18,960 nucleotides of DNA, taken from positions 1 through 18,960 of the forward strand of contig JAVCCG010000124.1 in assembly GCA_030765605.1 (NCBI GenBank), given 5' to 3'. The translations under genes were made by a program, and so were the position numbers. The notes below the pieces were generated by a model, which was not told where the DNA came from, searched no databases, and saw only the letters and a list, made by a program, of their open reading frames with translations. Below, piece after piece: positions 515-15,405 of the stretch (position 1 is the first letter of the stretch; the number at the start of each line of letters is the position of its first letter). The DNA comes from Candidatus Alcyoniella australis (GTDB lineage Bacteria; Lernaellota; Lernaellaia; JAVCCG01; Alcyoniellaceae).

Positions 515-543
515 AATCTACGGTGACTTTGCTGAGGATTCAA
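515..543 (-). promoter_or_regulatory. Candidate sigma70-type promoter for the secreted-protein gene
   Basis: Read on the minus strand, TTGAAT (543-538), a 17-base spacer and TAGATT (520-515) match the -35/-10 consensus 4/6 each. The expected start point falls at about 508, directly before the ATG at 507, which would make a leaderless transcript. The spacing is right but the matches are modest, so a chance match is possible. Confidence 0.3.
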
Positions 544-558
544 TCCAGATAATGAATG

Positions 559-609
559 AGCCGCGGGCGGCTTGTACGTCGCAGTAGAACCCTCATATCC
601 CAGGCTAGC
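559..609 (+). repeat. Short partial copy of a dispersed intergenic repeat, with hairpin
   Basis: It begins with a perfect 6-bp inverted repeat (AGCCGC-GG-GCGGCT, 559-572). It then shares blocks with the copy at 15246-15405: CTTGTA (571-576), GCAGTA (581-586) and CCCT (590-593), in the same order and with similar spacing. Its end, ATATCCCAGGCTAGC (595-609), differs at one of 15 bases from 2861-2875 in the long copy. The stop codon of the minus-strand SDR gene (605-607) lies inside this end. The hairpin could instead help end SDR transcription, but no T-tract follows it on either strand. Confidence 0.55.
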
Positions 610-2593: not shown

Positions 2594-2881
2594 CCGGCTT
2601 TGAGCCGGGCGGCAACGCTTGCGTACTTCTCTGGTCGTTGCTCAACGCTTCGATAAAGTCGCGGAGAGCATCGTATAGCAATGTGCATGGTTCGCTCGTG
2701 TGCCATGCGGGCACCTACAAGGTGCCAGCTCCAAGCTGGCTCCTGCTGTATCGATTACCAACGATCCAATCCACGTCGCGGGGAAGGTGGTTGAATTACG
2801 CGGATGGTCCGCTTGCGAGAGATGCTCCAGCTCCAAGCTGGCGTTGACGAAGGCGCGCGAATATTCCAGGCTAGCAAACAG
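2594..2881 (+). repeat. Long copy of a dispersed intergenic repeat, with hairpin-rich insertion
   Basis: It fills most of the 402-base gap between the divergent genes at 2501 and 2904, in which I see no convincing gene. The left part has the hairpin CCGGCT-TTG-AGCCGG (2594-2608), the block GGCAACGCTTGCGTAC (2611-2626) and the dyad CGTTG-CT-CAACG (2636-2647). The middle has ACCAACGA (2757-2764), CCACGTCG (2771-2778) and AAGGT (2784-2788). The right part has CGTTGACGAA (2842-2851), GAATA (2859-2863) and CAGGCT (2867-2872). Each block recurs in the same order at 15246-15405. About 110 extra bases, rich in hairpins, lie between the left and middle parts here. Confidence 0.65.
2710..2841. repeat. 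Cluster of short REP-like hairpins inside the long repeat copy
   Basis: There are four perfect inverted repeats, each with a 3-base loop: GGCACCT-ACA-AGGTGCC (2710-2726), GCCAGCT-CCA-AGCTGGC (2724-2740), GCGGA-TGG-TCCGC (2800-2812) and CCAGCT-CCA-AGCTGG (2827-2841). The second and fourth share a 15-base core. On the reverse strand they read CCAGCT-TGG-AGCTGG, close to the CCGGCT-TTG-AGCCGG hairpin at 2594 and the GAGGCT-TTG-AGCCTC hairpin at 15246. No T-tract follows any of them, so they are not classic terminators. Confidence 0.6.
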
Positions 2882-2903
2882 TTATCAGTACACAGGGAGG
2901 AGC

Positions 2904-3908
2904 ATGTCGGCCCAAGGCACAATGCGGCGCAATATCCTGATCGGGGTCGTGCTCGGCGCGCTGGTATTTCTGGGAGTGATCGTCTATTCGGGACGTTCGG
3001 AGCTGATCGACGCCCTGGGCCGTTTCCATCCGGCGCTGTTTTTGGCTCTCGTGGCGCTGAGCTTCACCAACTACCTGTTCCGCTTCGCCAAATGGCACTA
3101 CTACCTGGGACAGCTCAGAATACGCATCACCGTGGGCCGCAGTCTGGTGGTTTTCCTCTCGGGACTGGTGATGACCATCAGTCCGGGAAAGTTCGGCGAG
3201 GTGATCAAGAGCTATTTTCTCAAGCAGGTGACCGGAACGCCGATCAGCGTCTCGGCTCCGATCGTGATCGCCGAGCGGCTGACCGACTTCTTCGCCCTGC
3301 TGATTCTCGCCGGATTGGGATTTCTCTACCTGACGGCCTCGAGCTACCGCTTGGCCGCGGCCATTGTCATGGCGCTGCTGGTGGCGGTGGTGCTGGTGAT
3401 CGGCAACCGGCGCTTGAGCCTGTGGCTGATCGGGCTGCTCGAACAGTTCGGGCCGCTACGCATGATCGGCGACAAGATTCGCACGGCCTACGAATCGACC
3501 TATTTTCTCACGCGATTGCACCGCCTGTTGGTCGCCACGCTGCTCAGCGTAATGGCCTGGGCCTGCGAGTGTGCGGGATTCTGGATTGTGCTGCGGCAAT
3601 TGCGCGAGCACGCCAGCGCGCTGTCCGCGACCTTCATCTATAGCCTGGGCACGATCTTCGGCGCGATCAGCCCCGGCGGGCTGTTCATCACCGAGGGCAC
3701 GATGCTGGCGATGCTGCAGAACTCGACGCTGATGTCCGGCGTGCCGCTGACGCCGGGGGAGGCCGGGGCCGCGACGATCGTGATCCGTTGCGCCACCCTC
3801 TGGTTCGCCGTGGTGCTCGGTGCGCTGATTCTGATGGTCAAGCACGGCACGTTCAGCCGCGCGGCCCGGGATCTGGAGCACGACAACCAATCGCCGGGGG
3901 AGGGATGA
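2904..3908 (+). CDS. UPF0104 / flippase-like (LPG synthase transmembrane-domain family) membrane protein
   Basis: 334 residues, mostly membrane-spanning: helices near 11-28, 43-58, 80-92, 120-145, 152-167, 208-230 and 295-312. Family marks are SPGKFGEVIKSYFL (93-106), AERLTDFF (123-130), ISPGGLFITEG (255-265) and the late Arg-containing helix TIVIRCATLWF (291-301). This is the transmembrane half of MprF-type lysyl-phosphatidylglycerol synthases; lone versions are often found beside glycan or lipid genes and are suspected flippases. There is no soluble aminoacyl-transfer domain. The start at 2904 is set by GGGAGGAGC directly before it; a longer in-frame reading runs into the repeat. The stop overlaps the next ATG (ATGA), so it leads a four-gene unit. 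Confidence 0.88.
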   Translation: MSAQGTMRRNILIGVVLGALVFLGVIVYSGRSELIDALGRFHPALFLALVALSFTNYLFRFAKWHYYLGQLRIRITVGRSLVVFLSGLVMTISPGKFGEVIKSYFLKQVTGTPISVSAPIVIAERLTDFFALLILAGLGFLYLTASSYRLAAAIVMALLVAVVLVIGNRRLSLWLIGLLEQFGPLRMIGDKIRTAYESTYFLTRLHRLLVATLLSVMAWACECAGFWIVLRQLREHASALSATFIYSLGTIFGAISPGGLFITEGTMLAMLQNSTLMSGVPLTPGEAGAATIVIRCATLWFAVVLGALILMVKHGTFSRAARDLEHDNQSPGEG

Positions 3909-5419
3909 TGCGCCTACGCACAACGGTTCTGCTGCTGACGTTCGCGCTGCTTTGCGCCGGCTGCGCCTACGGCAATTACTTTCTGCCCGACAAGAGCCTC
4001 AACTATTCGCCGATACCGGACAAGTTCCGCAGCACGGTCGGTGATGGCTGGTACCACTACCAGTTAAAACCGGCCTCGTCGATTAACGACTCGGTGTCGC
4101 AGAACATGATCGACGACCGATGGTACGGCTCGGTTCGCCACCCCAGGGCCACCAACCGCGTATTGGCGGCGCGCGGCAAGTACCTGTGGTTCGTGCCTCG
4201 CGCCAAGGGACTCAGCGGCAAGTCCGGAGTGGTGCAGATCGACACCGAGACCCACGAGGCTCGGCTGCTGGGCGAGTTCAGCGTGGACCTGCCCTCGGAC
4301 CGCGTAAACCGCGTCAAGGCGCGCAACGACGGCACGGTCTGGATCGGCACCAACAGCGGCGCGATGAACTTCGATCCGCAGCTTGGCCGCGGCACGACCT
4401 TCGACGACTGGATGACCTTTGATCAGCGCGGGGGCGGCCTGGAGCGCGATTACCTGCTGTTCAGCACCACGCCCAGCGTGCTGGACATTGACGAGTCCGG
4501 GCACACGATTCTTTTTGCCACCGGCGACCTGTTCGCCTTTGACCAGAAAAAAGTGCGCTGGCGACGCTTCGACGAGACCTACGACGCCCATCAGACCGAC
4601 CATCGCGAGGACCGCCGCCGCTATCGGAAAAAGGTCAGCTACACGATCACCACCCGCGATGGCAAGAAGAAGACCCGCCGGGTGACCCTCGAGATTATCG
4701 AGATTCGCGAGTACGTTGATTACCAGATGCGCTCGCGCGGCAAGCGCGACATTGTCTCGGACACGATCTTCGAGGTGCTGGGCACGGCCGAGGACATCTG
4801 GATGCTTACCCAGCAGGGGATCAGCCAGTACAACATCCCGAGCAAGACCTATCGCAGCCATATCAAGCAACATTCATTGTGGCGCGAGTCCGAGAGCTGC
4901 GAGGATTACCACGACCCCTCGGACACCTGCGTGCGCAAGATTTACCGTCGCGAGCGCTACGACTATCCGGGCACCGCACCGCTGCTGGACGTGGCGGCCA
5001 GCTGCGCCGCGGCGGACGAACGCGGCCGGGTCTGGTTCGGTTTCGGCGGGACGATCGACTCGATGGGGCGCAGCCGGGGCGGCGCCGGGCTGATGTACTT
5101 CAGCAACGGTCGCTGGCAACAGGTCGACAGCGGGCCGGTCTCCGGCAAGCGGGTGACCGATCTGTTGAGCTATAAGCAGCGGCTGTTCGTGGCCACAACC
5201 CAAGGCGTGTTCGTGCGTCGCGACAACGGATCGTCCGCAAGCTGGGAGCAGATCAGGATCGACAAGAACCGGAGTTTCTCCGACGTGCTCGACATCGAGC
5301 TCGACGATCGCGGAGTGCTGTGGGTCGCCACGCCCGAGGGCGTGTTCGGCAAGCGCGTGATCCAGGGGCCGATCGATTGGCCCAAACCCGGCGAGACGAT
5401 CCGCATGCCCGGATTCTGA
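3905..5419 (+). CDS. Beta-propeller lipoprotein with two-component-regulator-type blades
   Basis: 504 residues. The N-terminus is a lipoprotein signal with the likely lipidated Cys20 in LLCAGC; position -3 is Cys where Leu is usual, so the lipobox is slightly off. Several blades of the two-component-regulator propeller type are visible: DGTVWIGTNSGAMNF (142-156), EDIWMLTQQGISQYN (296-310), GRVWFGF (374-380), QRLFVATTQGVF (425-436) and RGVLWVATPEGVFGK (469-483). A very basic insertion (about 218-282) and a short Cys-containing segment (Cys332, Cys342) interrupt the repeats. No kinase or output domain is present, so it is probably a surface or periplasmic scaffold. The start ATGATG follows GGGGGAGGG and overlaps the upstream stop by 4 bases. 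Its partner or ligand is unknown. Confidence 0.82.
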   Translation: MMRLRTTVLLLTFALLCAGCAYGNYFLPDKSLNYSPIPDKFRSTVGDGWYHYQLKPASSINDSVSQNMIDDRWYGSVRHPRATNRVLAARGKYLWFVPRAKGLSGKSGVVQIDTETHEARLLGEFSVDLPSDRVNRVKARNDGTVWIGTNSGAMNFDPQLGRGTTFDDWMTFDQRGGGLERDYLLFSTTPSVLDIDESGHTILFATGDLFAFDQKKVRWRRFDETYDAHQTDHREDRRRYRKKVSYTITTRDGKKKTRRVTLEIIEIREYVDYQMRSRGKRDIVSDTIFEVLGTAEDIWMLTQQGISQYNIPSKTYRSHIKQHSLWRESESCEDYHDPSDTCVRKIYRRERYDYPGTAPLLDVAASCAAADERGRVWFGFGGTIDSMGRSRGGAGLMYFSNGRWQQVDSGPVSGKRVTDLLSYKQRLFVATTQGVFVRRDNGSSASWEQIRIDKNRSFSDVLDIELDDRGVLWVATPEGVFGKRVIQGPIDWPKPGETIRMPGF

Positions 5420-5426
5420 GACGACG

Positions 5427-6407
5427 ATGTTCGCAAAGGACGACCGCGCCGGCAAACCACGACCGTGGTACTTCTACTTTGGCGCGTTGTTTTTCTCGCT
5501 GATCCTGACGCTGCTGATCATCGAGCTGATCGTGGGCCTGCTCAGCTGGGCGGTCTATGAGCGCCCCGACTTCGCGGGCATGCAAATCGGCGTCAGCGGA
5601 CCCGATTCGACGCTGATCATCTGCCTGGGCGATTCACACACTTACGGCGTGGGCGCGCCCAAGGGCCGCGACTATCCAACGACACTCGAGCTGGTGCTCA
5701 ACGAGCGCGCGGGCATGCAGGGCTTTGCGGTGCTCAACCTGGGCCAGCCGGGGCACAACAGCTCCGACGCCTTGCTCGAGTTGGAGAGCTTCATCGAGCA
5801 GTCGCCGGTCAAGCCCGACCTGCTGGTGCTGTGCGTGGGCAAGAACAATATGAACTCCCTACGCAACGCCTCGATTTTGCCCGAGCACGTGCGCGAGATG
5901 TCGCTGCCCGAACGACTGGATTACATGCTGGCCCACTCCGGCGCCTACCGCATCTCGAAGATGACGATCCAGCGCTTTCGCGAGCTGCGCGCGGACCGCG
6001 ATCCGCGGGTGGACGACCAGAACTTTAACTACGGCCAGTTCGTGCCCACCCGGCGCGAGCCGTTCCTCTACCAATGGGCGCTGCAGGACTATCGCACCGC
6101 AGCTGACCGCTGTGCCCAGCTGGGCACCACGCTGGTGATGATGAACTATTGGGAGCCGTTCGGTTTCGTCGATCGGGCGATGCGGCTGGTGGCCGACGAG
6201 AACGACAACGTGTTTTTTGTGAACCAGAACTTCCCGATCGCCGGCATGCCGGCCTATGCCAACGCCCTGATCTCACACCCGGACATGCATCCCAACGAAC
6301 GCGGCTACTACCGCATCGCCAAGCGCCTGGCCGCGATTTTAATCGAACAGGGTCTTGTCCACCTGCCGGATGAACGCGGGCCCGCAAACGCCGATGAGCC
6401 CCTTTAA
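5427..6407 (+). CDS. Membrane-anchored SGNH/GDSL-family hydrolase
   Basis: 326 residues. One N-terminal transmembrane helix (about 17-42) anchors a domain that should face the periplasm. SGNH blocks are GDSHT (68-72, nucleophile Ser70), the Gly block LGQPGHNS (105-112), the Asn block GKNN (138-141) and the catalytic pair in DMHPNERGY (Asp286, His288). Such enzymes are esterases or O-acyl transferases, often acting on cell-wall or exported polysaccharides. It begins 7 bases after the propeller-lipoprotein stop and overlaps the next gene, so it is part of the same unit. The ribosome site is weak (GAGACG), suggesting coupling to the upstream gene. The substrate is inferred only from context: a surface glycan. 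Confidence 0.87.
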   Translation: MFAKDDRAGKPRPWYFYFGALFFSLILTLLIIELIVGLLSWAVYERPDFAGMQIGVSGPDSTLIICLGDSHTYGVGAPKGRDYPTTLELVLNERAGMQGFAVLNLGQPGHNSSDALLELESFIEQSPVKPDLLVLCVGKNNMNSLRNASILPEHVREMSLPERLDYMLAHSGAYRISKMTIQRFRELRADRDPRVDDQNFNYGQFVPTRREPFLYQWALQDYRTAADRCAQLGTTLVMMNYWEPFGFVDRAMRLVADENDNVFFVNQNFPIAGMPAYANALISHPDMHPNERGYYRIAKRLAAILIEQGLVHLPDERGPANADEPL

Positions 6408-7956
6408 TCCGATTCTGCGAAGACTGCTGATCGCGGTCGCGCTGACCCTGGCGCTGTTCATGCTCTACTCGCGGCCGCTGTGGCCCGGGGCGCAGTATCG
6501 CCAACAGGTCGCGGCGATGAGCGACGGGCATTTCCATGTGGCGGCCGTGATCTTTCAAGGCGAGCGCTCCGGTTTGTACCAGCTCAAGTACGGCCCGGGC
6601 GCATATCTGCTGGATTGGCTGCCGTTGCGGTCGTTGGAGTTGCTGACACCGGGCAACTTGACAGGACGCGAGTTGATCGCCGCGAGGATGCTCGGCTGCG
6701 CCTGGCTGCACTGCCTGCTGGCCGCGTTGTGCGCGCCGCTGCTCTATCTCCTGCTCAGGCCGCGTTGGGGCCTGCGGCGCTCGCTGCTCGCCGCGGCGCT
6801 GCTGGGCATCCACCCGGCACTGGCGTCCCATGCCCTGAGCATCGACGTCAACGCGCCGTTTCTGTTCTATACGCTGCTCAGCCTGGTGAGCCTCGAGCGC
6901 TTGAACCGCAGCGGATCGTCGGCCTGGGCCGCGGCTCTGGGACTGTTTTCGGCCTGCGCGTTTTGCACCAAGGAGTTGTTCGGTTGGGCGATGCTCGCCT
7001 ATCCGTGGTTGATCTACGCCGGGGCCAAGGCGCGTGGTCGGCCGCTGTCATTCGTTGCACATGGCTCGCTGGCCCTGGCGGTGTTCGGCGGTGCAGTGGC
7101 GCTGCTGAGCCTGGTCTGGATCGATCCGCAGATCTACTTCAGCCATTTGCAGCGCTATCTGTCGGGCGATCCGGACTCGCTCTCCTGGGCCTATTGGCAT
7201 CAGGGACAGCAGCCGCTGTACACGCTACCGCTGCTGCTGCCCTGGGCGCTGGTGCGAGCCTGCAGCTCGCTGGCCCTCTCGCTGCTGGCGCTGGGCGGAA
7301 TTTGGTTTGTGGTCGGCGCGCGGCGAACGCGTCTGCCCGAGCTGGCCTGGCCGCTGTTGATCTACATTTTGGCCGTACCTCTGCGCATCGGGCGGCTGGA
7401 TTACCCCTACCTGCTGCCCGTGCTTCCGCTGTGCGTCGTTGCCGCCGCGCTGCTGGTGCACGAGCTCTCGGGTCTCGGGCGCAGACTGCCCGCGGTTCTG
7501 GCAAGAGCCGTGTTGGTCGCCGCGATCGCGGCGCTGGTTGTCCAGACGCTGCTGGTCCAGGCGCTGATCACGCCGCAGGTGCCCCAGCGTCTGGACCAGC
7601 TCGTCGGCCGCCAGGGGGCTGAGCCGACACTGTTGAACAGCCTACGCTCGAATCAATGCGAGCAGGTCTCAGGGCTGCCGCGGATCGACGGTACGCAAAG
7701 CCAGCGTCCGGCGCAGCTGCTGGTTCCGGCGTTGGAGGCAAGCAGCCGCGGGATAGATCCACAAGGGCGCGAGATGGAGCGTTTCCCCGCTCTGGCCCTG
7801 GGTTGGGAGGGTTATCGTTTGGAACGCAGGATCGAGCGCCGCACCCCGGGCTGCCTGCAAGGGGGGCGGATCAGCGCGGCGTTGTACACGTTTTGGTTCT
7901 GCGAAGAGGGGTACTACTTATTTTCGCGCAGCGCGGGCTCGAGCTTCGTCAGGTAG
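6394..7956 (+). CDS. Polytopic GT-C-type (ArnT/PMT-like) glycosyltransferase
   Basis: About 520 residues with 10-11 predicted membrane helices (first at 11-26, last near 369-391) and a soluble C-terminal tail of about 130 residues. The layout fits family-39/ArnT-like transferases, which move a sugar from a polyprenyl-phosphate carrier on the periplasmic side. Supporting features are an acidic first external loop (Asp44), GPGAYLLDW (68-76), SHALSIDVNAPFLFY (145-159) and RLDYPYLLPVLPL (334-346). Sequence divergence leaves donor and acceptor open. ATG 6394 is chosen but ATG 6370 is also possible; neither has a clear ribosome site. Both overlap the SGNH gene, implying coupling. The 3' end runs 43 bases into convergent rfbD. 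Confidence 0.75.
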   Translation: MSPFNPILRRLLIAVALTLALFMLYSRPLWPGAQYRQQVAAMSDGHFHVAAVIFQGERSGLYQLKYGPGAYLLDWLPLRSLELLTPGNLTGRELIAARMLGCAWLHCLLAALCAPLLYLLLRPRWGLRRSLLAAALLGIHPALASHALSIDVNAPFLFYTLLSLVSLERLNRSGSSAWAAALGLFSACAFCTKELFGWAMLAYPWLIYAGAKARGRPLSFVAHGSLALAVFGGAVALLSLVWIDPQIYFSHLQRYLSGDPDSLSWAYWHQGQQPLYTLPLLLPWALVRACSSLALSLLALGGIWFVVGARRTRLPELAWPLLIYILAVPLRIGRLDYPYLLPVLPLCVVAAALLVHELSGLGRRLPAVLARAVLVAAIAALVVQTLLVQALITPQVPQRLDQLVGRQGAEPTLLNSLRSNQCEQVSGLPRIDGTQSQRPAQLLVPALEASSRGIDPQGREMERFPALALGWEGYRLERRIERRTPGCLQGGRISAALYTFWFCEEGYYLFSRSAGSSFVR

Positions 7957-8774
7957 CACTCCAGCGCCTCGCGCCAGGGGCGCAACGGCCCGCCCAGGGC
8001 CGCGGCCAGCCGATCGCAGCATAGTTCGCTGTTGGCCGGTCGCGGGGCTTTGCGCGGCATTTGCGATGATTTTACCGGCCGGATTGTGATGTTGATTCCG
8101 AGAATCTCGCAGCAGGTTTTGGCCGCCTCGTACCAGGTGGTGACGCCGGAGTTGGTGGCGTGGAACAGGCCCGAGCGGCCCGATCGGCACAGCTCGAGAA
8201 TCGCCGCGGCCAGGTCGTTGGAGAGCGTGGGCGTTCCGCGTTGGTCCTCGACCACCGACAGCTCGCCGCGCTCGCGGGCCAGGCGGACGATGGTGCGGAA
8301 GAAGTGCCCTCCGTCCGGGCCGTAGAGCCAGGCTGTGCGTACGATCGTCGCCCGTTGGCCAAGCACCGACAGCGCGGTTTCTCCGGCGAGCTTGCTGCGG
8401 GCATAAGCTCCCAGGGGCTGCGGCCGGTCGTCCTCGCAATAGGGGCCGGGCTTGGTTCCGTCGAAAACATAGTCGGTCGAGATGTGCAGCAGTCGCGTCG
8501 AGCGCTCGGCCAGGGCCGCGGCCAGCACCCGCGGGCCCTGGGCGTTGACGCGCATCGCGGCATCGGGCTGATCCTCGGCCTGGTCGACCGCGGTGTAGGC
8601 CGCACAGTTGATCACCCACTGCGGATCGAAGCGCAGCGCCGCCTCGACCGATTGCGGGTCGGTGATGTCGACCTCGGGAAGATCCATGGCGCACAGCTCG
8701 TGTCCGTGAGCAGCGAACGCCTCGACCACGCGGCGTCCGAGCATCCCATTACAGCCCAGTACCAGGCAGCGCAC
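7914..8774 (-). CDS. rfbD: dTDP-4-dehydrorhamnose reductase
   Basis: 286 residues, the normal length. It catalyses the last step of dTDP-L-rhamnose synthesis, the NAD(P)H reduction of dTDP-4-dehydrorhamnose, in the cytoplasm. Key sites are GCNGMLG (7-13, nucleotide binding), CAAYTAVDQAE (57-67), STDYVFDG (99-106), the catalytic YARSK (124-128) and DQRGTPT (177-183), all classic for RmlD. The start is GTG, 2 bases after the rfbB stop, with GAGG just before it, so it is translated with rfbB. The last 43 bases overlap the convergent glycosyltransferase gene. The other pathway genes (rfbA, rfbC) are not in this window. Confidence 0.96.
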   Translation of the reverse strand: MRCLVLGCNGMLGRRVVEAFAAHGHELCAMDLPEVDITDPQSVEAALRFDPQWVINCAAYTAVDQAEDQPDAAMRVNAQGPRVLAAALAERSTRLLHISTDYVFDGTKPGPYCEDDRPQPLGAYARSKLAGETALSVLGQRATIVRTAWLYGPDGGHFFRTIVRLARERGELSVVEDQRGTPTLSNDLAAAILELCRSGRSGLFHATNSGVTTWYEAAKTCCEILGINITIRPVKSSQMPRKAPRPANSELCCDRLAAALGGPLRPWREALECYLTKLEPALRENK

Positions 8775-8776
8775 CC

Positions 8777-9799
8777 TCAGTCGGCCTCGGCCAGGCGTCG
8801 GCCGTACCAGGCGTCATAGAAGCGCTCGTGCTCGCCGCTGATGATCCGCTTGCACCAGTCCAGGTTGTTGCGGTACCAGTCCACGGTGCGCGCGATCCCC
8901 TCGGCGAAGTCGACCTGCGGCAGCCAGCCCAGCTCGCTTTCGATTCGACTGGAATCAATGGCGTAGCGCCGGTCGTGCCCGGGCCGGTCGGTCACGCGTT
9001 TGATCAGCGACTGAGGCTTGCCAAGGGCGCGCAGGATCAGTTGCGTGATCTCGATGTTGGTGCGCTCGTTGCCTCCGCCGACGTTGTAGACCCGGCCGAC
9101 CTCTCCGCGTTCGAGCACCAGTTCCAGCGCCCGGCAGTGGTCGTCGACGTGGATCCAGTCGCGCACGTTCTTGCCGTCGCCGTACAGCGGCAGCGGTTTG
9201 TCGTCCATGGCGTTGAGCGTGAACAGCGGGATCAGTTTTTCGGGAAACTGGTGCGGCCCGTAGTTGTTCGAGCAGCGAGTGATCATCGCCGGAAAGCCGT
9301 GGGTGCGCACATAGGCCTGCACCAGCAGGTCGGCGGCGGTCTTGCTCGCGGAGTAGGGGCTCGAGGGATCCAGCGGCGTTTCTTCGGTGAACAGCCCCTC
9401 GGGGCCCAGGCTGCCGTAGACCTCGTCGGTGCTGACCTGAACGTAGCGCTTCACGCCGTGACGCAGCGCCGCTTCGAGCAGCACCTGGGTGCCCAGCACG
9501 TTGGTGCGCACAAATTCGGCGGCGCTGTGGATGCTGCGATCCACGTGGCTTTCGGCCGCCAGGTGCAGCACCGCGTCGATATTGGATCCCAGAACCCGGT
9601 CGACGCACTCGGGATCGCAGATGTCGCCTCTGACGAACTCGATGCGGTCGCCTTCGACCAGATCGCGGATCGTCTCGAAATTACCGGCGTAGGTCAGCTT
9701 GTCGAGCACAACCGGACGCAGCTCGGGGCGGTTTGCACAAAGGTGGCGCACCAAGTTGCTGCCGATGAATCCGGCTCCGCCGGTGATCAGTATGCGCAT
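8777..9799 (-). CDS. rfbB: dTDP-glucose 4,6-dehydratase
   Basis: 340 residues, the family's usual length. It converts dTDP-glucose to dTDP-4-keto-6-deoxyglucose, the second step towards dTDP-rhamnose and other deoxysugars. Visible motifs are GGAGFIG (7-13), LAAESHVDRS (80-89), STDEVYG (123-129, with the catalytic Asp-Glu pair), YSASK (149-153) and NNYGPHQFPEKLIP (178-191). The ATG at 9799 is set by a strong GGAGGT at 9804-9809; upstream in-frame starts give sequence unlike the family. It is first gene of a two-gene unit with rfbD and is transcribed divergently from the TPR lipoprotein gene. A rhamnose donor would suit the surface-glycan genes next door, though no rhamnosyltransferase was identified. 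Confidence 0.97.
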   Translation of the reverse strand: MRILITGGAGFIGSNLVRHLCANRPELRPVVLDKLTYAGNFETIRDLVEGDRIEFVRGDICDPECVDRVLGSNIDAVLHLAAESHVDRSIHSAAEFVRTNVLGTQVLLEAALRHGVKRYVQVSTDEVYGSLGPEGLFTEETPLDPSSPYSASKTAADLLVQAYVRTHGFPAMITRCSNNYGPHQFPEKLIPLFTLNAMDDKPLPLYGDGKNVRDWIHVDDHCRALELVLERGEVGRVYNVGGGNERTNIEITQLILRALGKPQSLIKRVTDRPGHDRRYAIDSSRIESELGWLPQVDFAEGIARTVDWYRNNLDWCKRIISGEHERFYDAWYGRRLAEAD

Positions 9800-9816
9800 C
9801 GTTACCTCCGGCCGAC

Positions 9817-9845
9817 AATATAAACGTCTGGGCACCGCCTGGTAA
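9817..9845 (-). promoter_or_regulatory. Candidate promoter for rfbBD
   Basis: On the minus strand, TTACCA (9845-9840), a 17-base spacer and TATATT (9822-9817). The -35 matches 4/6 and the -10 matches 5/6. The predicted start near 9810 puts the ribosome site (9804-9809) at the very 5' end of the message. Confidence 0.4.
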
Positions 9846-9913
9846 AGATCGTTGCAACATCGCGGCGGGTTTGGGTGTCGATAAAGTGATGCTCGACGCA
9901 GATCGCGTGGGGC

Positions 9914-9919
9914 TATATT
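9914..9919 (+). promoter_or_regulatory. Candidate -10 element for the TPR lipoprotein operon
   Basis: TATATT stands out in otherwise GC-rich sequence, 8 bases before an AGGAGA ribosome site. The best -35 partner (TCGACG, 9893-9898) has a short 15-base spacer, so the promoter assignment is tentative. Confidence 0.33.
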
Positions 9920-9940
9920 TATCAACAGGAGATCTGCGCT

Positions 9941-9982
9941 ATGGACAGCGAACGCGGGATGCCGATACCATGCACGGCATGA
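9941..9982 (+). CDS. Possible 13-codon leader peptide coupled to the TPR lipoprotein gene
   Basis: ATG at 9941 is preceded by AGGAGA (9927-9932) at an ideal 8-base spacing, the best ribosome site in this leader. It encodes MDSERGMPIPCTA and stops at TGA 9980-9982, which overlaps the ATG (9979) of the lipoprotein gene as ATGA. The lipoprotein start itself has no good ribosome site, so translation may reach it through this short reading frame. There is no run of one amino acid, so amino-acid attenuation is not indicated. It could be chance; conservation in relatives would decide. Confidence 0.4.
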   Translation: MDSERGMPIPCTA

Positions 9983-11796
9983 AATTCGGCAAACCAACGA
10001 CGATTTTATTGGTGCTCGGATTGCTCGCATTGGGCGGCTGCGCCCTACGCGGCCATGAGCCGATCGATTACCAACCTGCGGATGCAACCGCTGCGGAACC
10101 GGAGGACCAGGAAGCGCAGCAGGCGCAAGATCTGCGCAATCAGTACCTGCAATTCCTGCGGGAGATGAACCGCATCGACCGCGATTTCAAGTCGTACTAC
10201 AGCTACTCGCTGGCCCAGTGGGCGATGATGGGCGGGGACGTCGTGGCCGCGCGCCGCTTGCTCGAGGAGTCGGCAGCCGGCGCCGAGCCGGGGACTTTTC
10301 CCTATCTCGAGCTGGCCGAGGTCTGCCTGACCCTGGGCGACTTTCAGTGCGCGATGACCAACGTTGAGCGCACTTTGCAAGATAATCCGAACGATCTACG
10401 GGCGCTGATGGCCTTGGCCGGACTGTCCGAGGCCATGGGCGATCGCGACGCCGCGCTCGAGGCCTACGATCGCTGCACCCGGATCGATCCCACACAGACC
10501 GACTGTCGGCTCTATCGCGCCGAGCTGCTGGTGGACATCGGAGAACTCGAGCAGGCCTTTGACGAGTTTGAGTCGCTGTTGCGCGAAGATCCGGGGCATA
10601 CCCAGGCGCGGCTGCTGTTGGCGCGGGTGTGCATGCTCACCGGCCGCGAACAGCGCGCCGAGCTCGAGTTCCTGACCGTACTCCAGCAGCGGCCCGGAGA
10701 TCTGGCCGCGGCACTGGGCATGGGACTGCTGTGCGAGCAGCAGGGTGATGTGCAGCGGGCGCTGGAGTACTACCAGATCGCCCTTACCGCCGATCCGGGC
10801 AACCGGATGTTGCGCGAACGGGTGATCCTGCTGCTGGTCGAGCTGGGACGCGCCGAGGATGCGTTGCAGCAGGCCGATCGGATCAGGACCATCGACGCGG
10901 ACGAGCACGCTTGGCGCATCACCCGGGCGATGATCATGTTTCACGTCGAACGCTACGACGAGGCCGAGAGCTTGTTGCGCGTGGGCCTGGAGCAGCAGCC
11001 GGACGACCAATACGCGCGGCTGTTGCTGGGCAACGTGCTGCTCAACCAGCGACGTCCCGAGGAGGCCCTGGAACATCTTGAGCAACTTGCGCAGGACTCG
11101 GATTATTACATCGACGGCCTGGCCTCGCAGGTCGAGGCGTTGCGCATGCTCAGGCGCTGGCCCCAGGCGCTGGAGACCTCGCGCGAGGGACGCGCGGCTC
11201 AACCGGACAACGACTACTGGCTACGCTCCGAAGCGATCGCGCTGGCCGGGCTGGAACGCTACGAACAGTCCGAGGAACTGCTGCGTCAGGGTATAAGCCG
11301 CAATCGACGCAACGCCGAATTGATCTACACCCTGGCGTTGGTGCTCGAGGAGCAGCAGCGCAGCGACGAAGCGTTACGCCAGATTAAAAAAGTACTGCGC
11401 CTCGATCCGGAGAATGTCAGCGCGCTGAACTTCCTGGGCTACAGCTATGCGGAACGCGGCGAGAACCTCGATCAGGCCGAGGCTGCACTGATCAAGGCCG
11501 ATTCGCTGCGGCCCGACGACGGCTACATCATCGACTCGCTGGGCTGGGTGTTTTACAAGCAGGGCCGCTTCGAGCAGGCTTTGCAATACCTCGAGCGCGC
11601 CGTGCAACTGGCGCCCAACGAGCCGGTGGTTCTGGGTCACCTGGGCGACGTCTATTCCGAATTGGGCCGCAATCAACAGGCGATCGATGCCTACCGCCGG
11701 GCGCTGCAGTCCGACCCGGAGCCCGACCAACGGCAGGAGCTGATCGATAAGCTTCGGGGCCTGGGCGCGCAGATCGACGCGGACGGAGGCTTGTGA
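9979..11796 (+). CDS. Tetratricopeptide-repeat lipoprotein
   Basis: 605 residues from the ATG at 9979. The signal peptide ends in LALGGC with lipidated Cys21. From about residue 108 to 590 the protein is a run of TPR-type helical pairs, for example LAEVCLTLGDFQCAMTNVER (112-131). The end carries the pair DSLGWVFYKQGRFEQALQYL and HLGDVYSELGRNQQAIDAY, which recurs in outer-membrane TPR proteins. It is probably a periplasm-facing scaffold for envelope assembly. ATG 9970 is an alternative start; neither start has a good ribosome site, and coupling to the short upstream reading frame would explain this. It overlaps the LolB-like gene by 4 bases (GTGA), so the two are probably linked in function. 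Confidence 0.88.
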   Translation: MKFGKPTTILLVLGLLALGGCALRGHEPIDYQPADATAAEPEDQEAQQAQDLRNQYLQFLREMNRIDRDFKSYYSYSLAQWAMMGGDVVAARRLLEESAAGAEPGTFPYLELAEVCLTLGDFQCAMTNVERTLQDNPNDLRALMALAGLSEAMGDRDAALEAYDRCTRIDPTQTDCRLYRAELLVDIGELEQAFDEFESLLREDPGHTQARLLLARVCMLTGREQRAELEFLTVLQQRPGDLAAALGMGLLCEQQGDVQRALEYYQIALTADPGNRMLRERVILLLVELGRAEDALQQADRIRTIDADEHAWRITRAMIMFHVERYDEAESLLRVGLEQQPDDQYARLLLGNVLLNQRRPEEALEHLEQLAQDSDYYIDGLASQVEALRMLRRWPQALETSREGRAAQPDNDYWLRSEAIALAGLERYEQSEELLRQGISRNRRNAELIYTLALVLEEQQRSDEALRQIKKVLRLDPENVSALNFLGYSYAERGENLDQAEAALIKADSLRPDDGYIIDSLGWVFYKQGRFEQALQYLERAVQLAPNEPVVLGHLGDVYSELGRNQQAIDAYRRALQSDPEPDQRQELIDKLRGLGAQIDADGGL

Positions 11797-12587
11797 ATCC
11801 GCAACGGGTTCGGCGTTGGGCGCTGTGGGCCGCGCTGTTGTTGTTGCTCACGGCGGGCTGTGCGACGCGCGGCGTTGCGCCGCCGGACCTTAAGGCGGGG
11901 GTCGATGGTGCGACGCTGCTCGAGGGCATGGCCCAGCGCAGCGCGGAGCTCAATACGCTCAGCGTCTGGGGCGTGGCCACCTATCGCCGCGGGTCCCAGC
12001 GTGGATTCGCCAATTTCGCGGTTCACCTCGGCGCAGGCGGCGAAATTCGGCTGGAACTGCTCGATCCGCTGTACATGCCGGCAATGGTTCTGGTCCAGGC
12101 GCACGATTCGATTCAGGTCTTCGACGTGCACTCCAACGTACTCTACAGCGGACCGCCGGGGCCGCAGGTACTCGAGCGGCTCGCCGGACTTCCCCTTGAT
12201 CCGCGGCTGCTTTTCCCGGCGTTCAGCGGGCGGCTCAAGGGCCGCGACGGTGCGATCGAGCTGCTGGAGGGGCCGGATGCGGGCCGCGCTGTGCGCCAGG
12301 GTAGACTCAGCGGGATCGTCGACAGCAGATCTTACCTGTTGACAAACTTTGAGTTTGATCTATATGAAGATGGCTCAAAGGCGAACGTCACGCTCGAGCG
12401 GTTAGATCAGACGGACGGTATGCTATTGGCCGGGCTGATAGTATGCAGCGGATATGCTGGAACCGACCGGGCGGAGCGATTCTCCGTTGAGCTGACCGTG
12501 GAGACGGCGCGTCCCAATCCGGAGCTGGACGATTCGATTTTTGTGCTCGATCCGGGACCGGACACGACATTGCGCGACCTGCGTTGA
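11793..12587 (+). CDS. LolB/DUF4292-like outer-membrane lipoprotein
   Basis: 264 residues. The N-terminus is a lipoprotein signal with LTAGC and Cys23. The body resembles LolB-type lipoprotein carriers: an early segment ELNTLSVWGVATYRRG (52-67), alternating beta strands (FANFAVHL and EIRLELLDP) and then VFDVHSNVLYSG, as expected for an open beta-barrel cradle. LolB receives lipoproteins and inserts them in the outer membrane. This relationship is inferred from pattern and from the common pairing with a TPR lipoprotein gene; identity is low, so DUF4292 is an equal label. The start is GTG, with GGAGG three bases before it, inside the last codons of the TPR gene. The next gene follows after 19 bases. 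Confidence 0.68.
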   Translation: MNPQRVRRWALWAALLLLLTAGCATRGVAPPDLKAGVDGATLLEGMAQRSAELNTLSVWGVATYRRGSQRGFANFAVHLGAGGEIRLELLDPLYMPAMVLVQAHDSIQVFDVHSNVLYSGPPGPQVLERLAGLPLDPRLLFPAFSGRLKGRDGAIELLEGPDAGRAVRQGRLSGIVDSRSYLLTNFEFDLYEDGSKANVTLERLDQTDGMLLAGLIVCSGYAGTDRAERFSVELTVETARPNPELDDSIFVLDPGPDTTLRDLR

Positions 12588-12606
12588 AACTGCGAGAGGA
12601 GGCCCG

Positions 12607-13293
12607 ATGCCCAACGACAAACGCCTAGGCGAGATGTTGGTCGAAAGTGGACAGATCACCCAGCTCCAATTCGACTCGGCGATGGCGGATCAGCGTTCCT
12701 GGGGCGGCAACCTGGGCCGCAACTTGGTGCGCATGGGGGCGGTGAGCAGGGCGCAGTTGGTCGATTTTCTGGCTCGTAAAATCAACGTACAGAAGATTGA
12801 TTTTCTACACACCACGGTCAACGAAGATGCGGTCAAGCTCATTCCGCGCGAGGTATGTTGGAGGTTCAAGGTGCTGCCGATCGTGGCCAAGGCCAGCACC
12901 GCGAAAAAGGGTCTGCTGCTGGCGATGGCCGATCCGTCCGACCTCGAGGCGATTGAGCAGGTCGAGTTCCTCACCGGCTATCGGGTGACGCCGGTGGTCG
13001 GCGACGAGGAGCAGATCGAGAAGATCATCGAACACTGCTACAGCTCCGATGGTTATCGCTCGTGCCAGAATGGCGAGTGTCTGCACGAGATGATCGACCT
13101 CAAGCCCGCGGCGATCGACCTGCCGGACGAGGAACAGATCGTGATCATGACCGATCACGGCGAGGAGAAGGTGATCCAGAAGGACGACCGGATGGTCGCC
13201 TTTCGCGGTCTGCGGGCCCTGGTCGACCTGTTGATCGAGAAGGGCATCGTTACCCAGGAAGAGTTCCGCGATCAGCTTGCCAAGACCGAATAG
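12607..13293 (+). CDS. Stand-alone MshEN (GspE N-terminal) domain protein, possible c-di-GMP sensor
   Basis: 228 residues, with no ATPase domain. Two tandem 22-24-residue motifs of the MshEN type are visible: RLGEMLVESGQI then FDSAMADQ (6-29), and LGRNLVRMGAVS with LVDFLARK (36-58). In MshE such tandem motifs bind cyclic di-GMP. A second part (about 74-145) has the pattern IPREVCWRFKVLPI, LLLAMADPSDLEAIEQVEF and VVGDEEQIEKIIEHCY, typical of the rest of the GspE/PilB N-domain. The C-terminal segment RALVDLLIEKGIVTQEEF is helical. The start is set by AGGAGG 4-5 bases upstream. It sits between the lipoprotein pair and ABC ATPase genes; its target is unknown. Ligand binding is inferred from the motif only. 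Confidence 0.8.
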   Translation: MPNDKRLGEMLVESGQITQLQFDSAMADQRSWGGNLGRNLVRMGAVSRAQLVDFLARKINVQKIDFLHTTVNEDAVKLIPREVCWRFKVLPIVAKASTAKKGLLLAMADPSDLEAIEQVEFLTGYRVTPVVGDEEQIEKIIEHCYSSDGYRSCQNGECLHEMIDLKPAAIDLPDEEQIVIMTDHGEEKVIQKDDRMVAFRGLRALVDLLIEKGIVTQEEFRDQLAKTE

Positions 13294-14308
13294 CGCCATT
13301 TCAACGCCAGCCGATTCCCGGCCGCAAACCCTGCGTATCCGGCGCCTGACCACCGAACTTCGTTCGCAAGGCGGGCTGCTGAGCATTGTGGACAACGTAT
13401 CGCTGAGCATCGAGCGTGGTTGCGCGCTGGGGCTGGTGGGCGAATCGGGCTGCGGCAAGAGCCTGCTGGCGCGCAGCGCCCTGGGACTTTTGCCGCGCAG
13501 GCTGTTCAAGGTCAGCGGCAGTGTGCGCCTGGGCCAAAGCGAACTGATCGGCATGCCGCGCAGGCAACTGCGCAAGGTGCTGGGCAGTCGCGCGGCGATG
13601 ATCTTCCAAGAGCCCGCCGCTGCCATGGATCCGGTCTATCCGGCGGGAGACGCGGCCTACGAGGTGTTGCGACGACACGGCGGCCTGGGTCGCGTTGACT
13701 CGCGACGGCGCGTGGCCGAGCTGTTCGCCCAAGTCGGGATCGACGATCCGCTCAAACGTGCGGCGCAGATTCCCTCGCGCCTTTCCGGCGGCATGCGCCA
13801 GCGCGCGTTGATCGCCTCGACCCTGGCCGCGGACGTCGAGCTGCTGGTGGCCGACGAGCCGACGACCGCCCTGGACGTGACGATCCAGGCGCAGATTCTG
13901 GCGTTGCTCAATCGCCTGCGCCGCGACCGCGGAACCTCGCTGCTGCTGATCACCCACGATTTGGGCGTGGTCGCCGCGACCTGCCAGCGGGTGGCGGTGA
14001 TGTACGCCGGGCGGATCGTGGAACACGGCGCGGTGGGCGAGATCTTCAGCCGGCCGGCCCATCCTTACACGCGGTTGCTGCTGAAAGCGCTGCACGCCAC
14101 GCAACAGCGCGACATTCAACGTCTCGAGGGCATTCCCGGCAACGTGCCCGACCCCTCGGACTATCCAACGGGCTGTCGGTTTCACCCGCGCTGTCCCGAG
14201 CGTTTCGCGGTCTGCGATTCGCAAGTACCCCAACAACTGCCGATCCCGGGCCGCAACGGCTGGGCCGCCTGCCATCTGTACGACTCGAGCCTTCGGGGTA
14301 AATCATGA
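13277..14308 (+). CDS. Oligopeptide/dipeptide ABC transporter ATPase, OppD/DppD type
   Basis: 343 residues. It has a Walker A GESGCGKS (55-62), Q-loop at 111, signature LSGGMRQR (169-176), Walker B LLVADEP (189-195) and H-loop His227. The C-terminal oligopeptide-transporter domain holds Cys300, Cys306, Cys313 and Cys332; related ATPases carry a [4Fe-4S] cluster at such a motif. It powers import of peptides or other solutes such as nickel or sugars. The likely start is TTG at 13277, inside the last 17 bases of the MshEN gene; no other good in-frame start precedes the domain, and the ribosome site is weak. It overlaps the next ATPase gene (ATGA). No permease or binding protein is in the window. 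Confidence 0.9.
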   Translation: MPRPNSAISTPADSRPQTLRIRRLTTELRSQGGLLSIVDNVSLSIERGCALGLVGESGCGKSLLARSALGLLPRRLFKVSGSVRLGQSELIGMPRRQLRKVLGSRAAMIFQEPAAAMDPVYPAGDAAYEVLRRHGGLGRVDSRRRVAELFAQVGIDDPLKRAAQIPSRLSGGMRQRALIASTLAADVELLVADEPTTALDVTIQAQILALLNRLRRDRGTSLLLITHDLGVVAATCQRVAVMYAGRIVEHGAVGEIFSRPAHPYTRLLLKALHATQQRDIQRLEGIPGNVPDPSDYPTGCRFHPRCPERFAVCDSQVPQQLPIPGRNGWAACHLYDSSLRGKS

Positions 14309-15255
14309 GCGCGGCGCTGCTCGATCTGCGGCAGGTGAACAAGACCTTTTTTTCCCGCGACAAGGTGTTGCGCGCGGTGCGCGACGTTTCGTTGCAGGTC
14401 CCGGCGCAAAGCACCGTGGGGCTGGTCGGCGAGTCCGGCTGCGGCAAGAGCACTTTGGGACGGCTCAGCGTGGGCCTCTACCAACCAGACGACGGCGAAG
14501 TGCTGTTCGACGGCCTACGGCTGGCCGATCAATCGCGCCGTGGGCTGCGCGCGTTGCGTCGACGCTTCCAAATGGTGTTCCAGGATCCGCAGGCCGCGCT
14601 GAGTCCGCGGATGAAGGTCGGCGCCCAGGTCAGCGAGGCGATGGCGGTCCACGGCATGGGCGGCACGCGCATCGAACGCCGCGAACGTACGCTCGAGCTT
14701 TTCCAACGGGTCGATTTGGCGCCCGAGCTCTACGCACGGCTGCCCTTCGAGCTCAGCGGCGGCCAACGCCAACGCGTGCTGATCGCCCGCGCCCTGGCCA
14801 CGGAGCCGGACCTGCTGGTCAGCGACGAGCCCGTGGCCAGCCTCGATCTGTCGATGCAGGCCCGCGCCCTGCGCCTGATCGCCGACCTGACCGCAGAACG
14901 CGGCATGGCGCATCTGTTGATCAGCCACGACATCCGCGTGGTGCGGCTGCTGGCCTCCTGGGTGCACGTGATGTACGCTGGGCGGATCGTGGAGCGCGGC
15001 CCGCTGCCGCAGACATTGGACCAGCCGGCCCACCCCTATACCGTGGTGCTCACCGCCTCGGTCCCCGGGCTTGAGCCGCGGATGATCTTCGATCCGCCGT
15101 TGGGCGAGGGCGATGTGGCGGCCGCGCCGGAGATCGGCTGCCCGTTCTATCCGCGCTGCGATCGACGTTTGCCCAAGTGCGCAAAGGGCGAGGTCCCCGA
15201 GTTCGCGGTCGATGGCGAGTCCTCAGGACGCATGGCTCGCTGCTGGAGGCTTTGA
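14305..15255 (+). CDS. Oligopeptide/dipeptide ABC transporter ATPase, OppF/DppF type
   Basis: 316 residues, partner of the preceding ATPase; the two form a heterodimer in this transporter class. Walker A GESGCGKS (43-50), Q-loop in VFQDPQAALSP (91-101), signature LSGGQRQR (150-157), Walker B LLVSDEP (170-176) and H-loop His208 are all intact. A C-terminal Cys set (Cys279, Cys285, Cys292, Cys313) matches the metal-cluster motif of the family. The ATG overlaps the upstream stop by 4 bases, with GGGGTAA just before it. The stop codon (15253-15255) lies inside the first hairpin of the intergenic repeat copy. This is the last gene of the long plus-strand unit that begins near 9941. Confidence 0.92.
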   Translation: MSAALLDLRQVNKTFFSRDKVLRAVRDVSLQVPAQSTVGLVGESGCGKSTLGRLSVGLYQPDDGEVLFDGLRLADQSRRGLRALRRRFQMVFQDPQAALSPRMKVGAQVSEAMAVHGMGGTRIERRERTLELFQRVDLAPELYARLPFELSGGQRQRVLIARALATEPDLLVSDEPVASLDLSMQARALRLIADLTAERGMAHLLISHDIRVVRLLASWVHVMYAGRIVERGPLPQTLDQPAHPYTVVLTASVPGLEPRMIFDPPLGEGDVAAAPEIGCPFYPRCDRRLPKCAKGEVPEFAVDGESSGRMARCWRL

Positions 15256-15405
15256 GCCTCGGCAACGCTCGCGTACCGCGCTGGTCGTCGACCAACGAGC
15301 CGCCCCGCGTCGTGTAAGGTTTCGGTGGGCCTTCTTGTATTTGCAGTACCCTGAGCGCCTCGTTGACGAACCGTCGTGAATAATTCAGGCTGGTAGAATC
15401 AACAG
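15246..15405 (+). repeat. Copy of the dispersed intergenic repeat between ATPase and iron-sulfur genes
   Basis: This copy covers nearly the whole 163-base gap. It opens with the hairpin GAGGCT-TTG-AGCCTC (15246-15260), then GGCAACGCTCGCGTAC (15261-15276), ACCAACGA (15291-15298), CCGCGTCG (15305-15312), AAGGT (15316-15320), CTTGTA and GCAGTA (15334-15348), CGTTGACGAA (15361-15370), GAATA (15378-15382) and CAGGCT (15385-15390). All but the CTTGTA/GCAGTA pair are shared in order with 2594-2881; that pair is shared with 571-586. Stem bases of the first hairpin differ from the other copy yet still pair. I see no gene and no T-tract terminator here. Confidence 0.65.
15391..15399 (+). promoter_or_regulatory. 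Candidate extended -10 promoter for the iron-sulfur protein gene
   Basis: TGG directly followed by TAGAAT (5/6 to the -10 consensus) gives an extended -10. A -35 at normal spacing is not evident; the conserved TTGACG at 15363 is about 25 bases upstream, too far. The GAGGAG ribosome site at 15407-15412 follows closely, so the leader would be very short. Confidence 0.38.

Follow-up and report, generated by a model that had tools for sequence, protein, structure and literature searches.

Intergenic repeats in Candidatus Alcyoniella australis: scars of a probable IS1380-type MITE with a conserved single-strand fold and of a REP/BIME-like hairpin mosaic

The common explanation for small intergenic repeats is that they are MITEs in decay, with nothing but their ends to define them. 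The stretch of DNA analysed here (18,960 nucleotides from Candidatus Alcyoniella australis, hereafter the window) carries three such repeats, copies A (2594-2881), B (15246-15405) and C, and raises the question of what they are and how they came to lie there. The initial annotation regarded them as a single family of at least three related copies, expected to occur many times in the genome and to lie at gene borders, and offered a non-autonomous mobile element, a structured RNA or an mRNA-processing site as possible identities.

The repeats themselves are real. Copies A and B hold the same blocks in identical order, and their local alignment scores 83, compared with 46.8 +/- 6.1 in 1000 dinucleotide shuffles (maximum 69), so that the block alignment is not reproduced by shuffled sequence. 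Copy C taken by itself aligns with A or B no better than shuffles do (206/1000 and 74/1000 of which reach its scores against A and B), which is the one point in favour of a chance product of GC-rich intergenic DNA. Nevertheless, copy C is matched by a profile of the family termed T below that was made from other copies (nhmmer E 6e-6); thus, its kinship is real, but runs through another part of the repeat material than that shared by A and B. Further copies abound in the genome, as had been anticipated, with 54 matches to A and 45 to B, 296 GCTTKGAGC hairpin cores (89 in the reversed control) and 137 occurrences of the T terminus AGCCCGGATTATTCATGA (1 in the control). These counts, together with the profile matches and matches in other genomes, contradict and have already refuted the chance explanation, whose probability is practically nil. 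The idea of one family with three copies, on the other hand, had to be abandoned, since profiles split the supposed family in two. At the loci of the A and B matches, too, two distinct and unrelated repeat families, H and T, were recognised, which are frequently joined into H/T composites. The features in the window are as follows.

Copy A, 2594 to 2651, plus strand: left half of an H module, end hairpin CCGGCTTTGAGCCGG followed by GGCAACGCTTGCGTAC (covariance model R1, 38.8 bits, E 1.9e-7).
Copy A, 2657 to 2726, minus strand: right half of an H module, inverted, end hairpin GGCACCTACAAGGTGCC (R1, 45.3 bits, E 6.5e-9).
Copy A, 2774 to 2842, minus strand: second right-half H module, end hairpin CCAGCTCCAAGCTGG (R1, 56.9 bits, E 1.7e-11).
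Copy A, 2842 to 2874, minus strand: probable remnant of a T left end, a weak match to the T profile (nhmmer E 0.78) that ends at the expected CTAG (2871-2874).
Copy B, 15245 to 15312, plus strand: H module, hairpin GAGGCTTTGAGCCTC (R1, 69.1 bits, E 3.3e-14).
Copy B, 15328 to 15393, minus strand: left half of T, terminus AGCCTGAATTATTCA, with CTGG occupying the target position (T profile, nhmmer E 4.9e-12).
Copy C, 536 to 608, plus strand: decayed right half of T, GCAGTAGAACCCTCAT..CCCAGG, ending in CTAG at 605-608 (nhmmer T profile, E 6.2e-6 over 536-597).

In sum, copy A comprises a full H dimer (2594-2651 with 2657-2726), another right-half H module and what is probably the end of a T. Copy B represents a T::H composite in truncated, half-copy form, and copy C retains the right half of a T element. 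Model R2, built for T, finds no complete element in the window, as expected of half-copies, which the local profile does detect. The placement at gene borders was confirmed, as was the overlap of two copies with stop codons: the TGA of the gene upstream of copy B (15253-15255) lies within the hairpin CTTTGAG, and the CTAG target site of copy C supplies the TAG (605-607) of the minus-strand gene 605-1564. Copies A, B and C would be intergenic scars of two repeat families, and we consider it likely that these are T, an IS1380-type MITE with a strand-specific fold, and H, a REP/BIME-like repeat.

Family H, in which short hairpins and palindromes are combined into a mosaic, is REP/BIME-like. Its module begins with a hairpin of the form stem-CT-TNG-AG-stem' and then CAAAACTCGCG or CATGGCACGCG, after which come a GGTCGT..ACGACC stem and CCGCGTCG; the stem types are interchangeable, while the TNG loop is fixed and a palindrome follows the tail. 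Half-modules are found alone, in tandem, or paired into inverted dimers of ~130 bp. When copies were gathered by their tail, without regard to hairpins, 106 of 131 had perfect 4-bp stems, compared with 28 after shuffling, and four stem types dominate (GCAC, GCGG, CCGG and GCAG). The hairpin stem also covaries in a pre-selected alignment, in which pairing had been a selection criterion. Of 145 genomes searched, H is present only in its own, where the number of matches is a lower bound. A third palindromic module, AAAGATCG..CGATCTTT, adjoins H modules at five loci (L058, L192, L196, L200 and L201) as part of 143-155 bp mosaics.

Family T is a palindrome of ~180 bp with termini CCCGGATTATTCATGA. 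Full copies in the window's own genome (G000) measure 180-182 bp, carry terminal repeats of ~24 bp, and are too short for a transposase gene. Conservation of the flanks drops sharply after four bases, with the consensus CTAG, and the left and right four-mers are identical in 25/66 copies, against a shuffled mean of 14.8 (0/2000 shuffles as high). The edge of conservation and the matching four-mers together place the core terminus at CCCGGATTATTCATGA, with a 4-bp target duplication, and past mobility of T is well supported. Minimal derivatives of 30-40 bp, which contain scarcely more than the two termini, were observed at L177 (1501-1530), L180 (1501-1540) and L184 (1483-1518), and in another genome, G214, two T copies directly adjoin head to tail (L303, 7664-8019).

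The ends of T point to the IS1380 family of insertion sequences. In genome G341 a near-identical terminus lies just past the C-terminus of a PF13701 transposase (E 4e-10), and in G293 another precedes an N-terminus whose 12 residues look IS1380-like by eye; both transposases are fragments at contig ends. A complete IS1380 element of a Nostoc plasmid has related ends, CCCGGATTTCTCAC, which agree with T at 12/16 terminal bases, and a matching duplication; no intact IS1380 element with the exact T termini was recovered. PF13701 is absent from G000 and from G060, and a fragment is found in G061, where it was rejected as the partner of T because no matching termini surround it. An autonomous T in the window's own genome was likewise rejected, as there is no PF13701 and, among the 100 terminus sites listed, no widely spaced pair. 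Since T termini flank IS1380 fragments elsewhere while the own genome has no PF13701, T is probably an orphaned MITE. An IS1380-type transposase, since lost from the genome, would have inserted it in trans at CTAG-like sites with a 4-bp duplication. The suggestion of a non-autonomous mobile element therefore holds for the T part of the repeats, through its target duplications, IS1380-type termini and the missing transposase. In the literature on IS1380 MITEs, and under the T terminus string, we found nothing describing an IS1380-derived MITE of this kind.

T is not confined to its own genome. When genome contigs were searched for exact matches, the terminus turned up in one Acidobacteria MAG and one Proteobacteria MAG, and with at most one mismatch it occurs in 13/386 genomes. 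Model R2, trained solely on own-genome copies, detects T in 9/17 chosen genomes (G000, G060, G061, G155, G201, G211, G214, G279 and G378), an Acidobacteria and a Proteobacteria MAG among them, with best E values of 1e-14 to 1e-23 in the eight besides G000. Among the same 17, it finds no T in two relatives of the same class, nor in six genomes that have the terminus only. The phyla that can be named are those of the two MAGs and the window's own lineage. A DNA search of plasmids found no T, and viral contigs held no T terminus. Across genomes the length stays near 180 bp while the interiors scarcely align. Two variants of 266 bp in G061 (L161 and L163, both 1253-1518) contain a common extra internal segment; outside its own genome, too, T may carry short cargo.

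In some copies T and H have been joined. The same H module sits at an identical internal site of T in four full composites (L033, L037, L259 and L288), of which that at L259 has CTAG on both flanks. Three half-copies, namely window copy B, L032 and L034, have the same T/H junction (copy B therefore shares its junction with L032, L033, L034, L037, L259 and L288) and end just past the H hairpin. As the simplest account, T would have captured H once, and the composite would then have been copied. That the three half-copies (copy B taken as 15226-15402) stop at the same point may reflect descent from a single ancestor or an end that arises repeatedly.

The interior of T is one long imperfect hairpin, which is much more stable from one fixed strand. 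The mean strand gap is 13-25 kcal/mol in all 9 genomes, and in 24/24 copies the preference falls on that same strand, whether RNA or DNA parameters are used. On the stable strand of 11 copies (that of G201 having been reoriented accordingly) the mismatches comprise 86 A·G and 1 C·T. Since copies within one genome are kin, neither these nor the other counts of copies represent independent events. This excess of A·G over C·T is the strong signal, G·T exceeding A·C only mildly in the stem (74:43). Random flips of mismatch polarity seldom yield the energy gap of T, an exception being the copy from G214 (P 0.12). G·A-type internal loops, such as ga/ga and ga/gca, are recurrent, as is an apical hairpin near GGCGUAC..GUACGUCGAG. 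In a five-lineage alignment both sides have changed in 37/61 pairs, and the covariation score is 0.452, compared with 0.173 in shuffled and <=0.114 in slid versions; the alignment is sequence-based, the structure was derived from that same alignment, and part of the pairing stems from the element being an inverted repeat. A sequence profile of the own-genome interiors, with termini removed, barely detects those of other genomes (best E 0.005).

Conservation of the T fold is thus strongly indicated. The base sequence turns over between genomes by compensatory change, with the hairpin being kept, and a sequence that changes while its fold stays points to an undescribed function of that fold. We suppose that the fold acts in a single strand, be it a small RNA made separately or ssDNA that arises when the element is replicated or transposed, and not as a signal for mRNA processing. 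Of the structured RNA suggested at the outset, the structure stands, through the strand-specific fold and the cross-genome covariation, and action as RNA is a prediction. Rfam gave no match in the window and none in 5 T/H loci at E<=1, and just two sub-threshold matches to microRNA families in 5 further T/H loci; a known RNA family was rejected as the identity of T or H for want of a curated match. Our best reading is that T is an IS1380-type MITE with a conserved single-strand fold of putative function. Beyond this we propose tentatively, at somewhat less than an even chance, that T represents a class of mobile structured nucleic acids that has yet to be described. Such an element would be a single-strand fold of fixed length (~180 nt), marked by G·A internal loops and a conserved apical hairpin; selection would act on the fold itself, in the form of small RNA or ssDNA, and IS1380-type transposition would have carried it from one bacterial phylum to another.

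Rather unlikely, in our judgement, is that T is nothing more than an IS1380-derived MITE, whose interior would be the decaying palindrome of one ancestor and whose strand preference would reflect ancestral mismatches without function. Bacterial MITEs commonly fold as long stem-loops (PMC10969869), MITEPye1 being an example (PMC11578231), the copies of T in one genome are of common ancestry, and their orientation to genes is unbiased. Neutral decay, however, is expected to break pairs and to randomise mismatch polarity, whereas length, strand preference, G·A loops, apical motif and pairing have all been retained through an almost complete turnover of the interiors between genomes.

Two further explanations appear improbable to us. 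In one, T is co-transcribed with a neighbouring gene and acts in mRNA processing or stability, like NEMIS/Correia or ERIC. With genes taken from a simple codon-usage caller rather than an annotation, not one of the 106 intact copies from the nine genomes falls within a predicted gene, many are located <100 bp from stop codons, and in co-directional gene pairs of the own genome sense outnumbers antisense by 11:4 (8:1 and, after removal of nested pairs, 11:3 in two other counts), which hints at such a role. The lean is the opposite in G214 (3:14), and the hint is gone when the nine genomes are pooled (27 sense, 33 antisense); an orientation unbiased over nine genomes argues against a general mRNA-processing role, and so against the processing site of the initial annotation. 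In the other, the strand-specific hairpin is recognised as ssDNA by an HUH enzyme of the Y1/RAYT-like type, with both T and H as RAYT substrates. The genome does encode one RAYT-like Y1 protein, its only such transposase gene (PF01797, E 8e-9; L154 1351-1923, at C95:13478-13834 of G000), H is hairpin-ended and often dimeric, like the REP dimers described in PMC3733652, and the folding preference of T persists with DNA parameters. Yet the 4-bp target duplications and IS1380 termini of T are unlike HUH transposition, no H or T copy lies beside the RAYT-like gene (the nearest H found is ~4 kb off), and the foot of the H hairpin has neither a GTAG nor a CGTC tag, CAAAACTCGC-type tails following the stem and the 5' flank being variable. 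RAYT mobilisation of H was rejected on this ground of a single Y1 gene without adjoining H.

Our preferred reading, an IS1380-type MITE with a conserved fold, matters beyond this locus. Across distant genomes T keeps its interior fold, its length and its folding strand while its bases change, which suggests selection on the fold. It thereby offers a testable case for the frequent hairpins among bacterial MITEs, with R2 as a search model for tracing T-like elements. If the fold acts as RNA or ssDNA, T would be a mobile carrier of functional structure; if it does not, T would clearly illustrate that covariation within palindromes need not signify function.

Both families resemble known systems and depart from them. 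Like REP, BIME and REPIN sequences with their RAYT, H forms high-copy short hairpins, inverted dimers and clusters, has stem variants with complementary changes, and resides in a genome with one RAYT-like gene; it differs from the GTAG and CGTC superfamilies in its TNG triloop, CAAAACTCGC tail and long inner palindromes, and has no tie to a RAYT locus. T resembles IS1380-family insertion sequences (PF13701, DDE_Tnp_1_4) and IS-derived MITEs in its termini CCCGG..TTCA and shares with them the CTAG-like 4-bp duplication, and with IS-derived MITEs its intergenic location, the lack of a gene of its own and presumed mobilisation in trans. In contrast to these, its genome has no partner transposase, and T copies have more in common than termini, namely a strand-specific interior fold and a near-constant length across distant genomes. 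NEMIS/Correia, ERIC and QMITE2 are, like T, intergenic palindromes of 100-200 bp with a very stable predicted hairpin. They have documented effects in transcripts (PMC10969869), whereas T has no gene-orientation bias and possesses a fold that covaries across several genomes.
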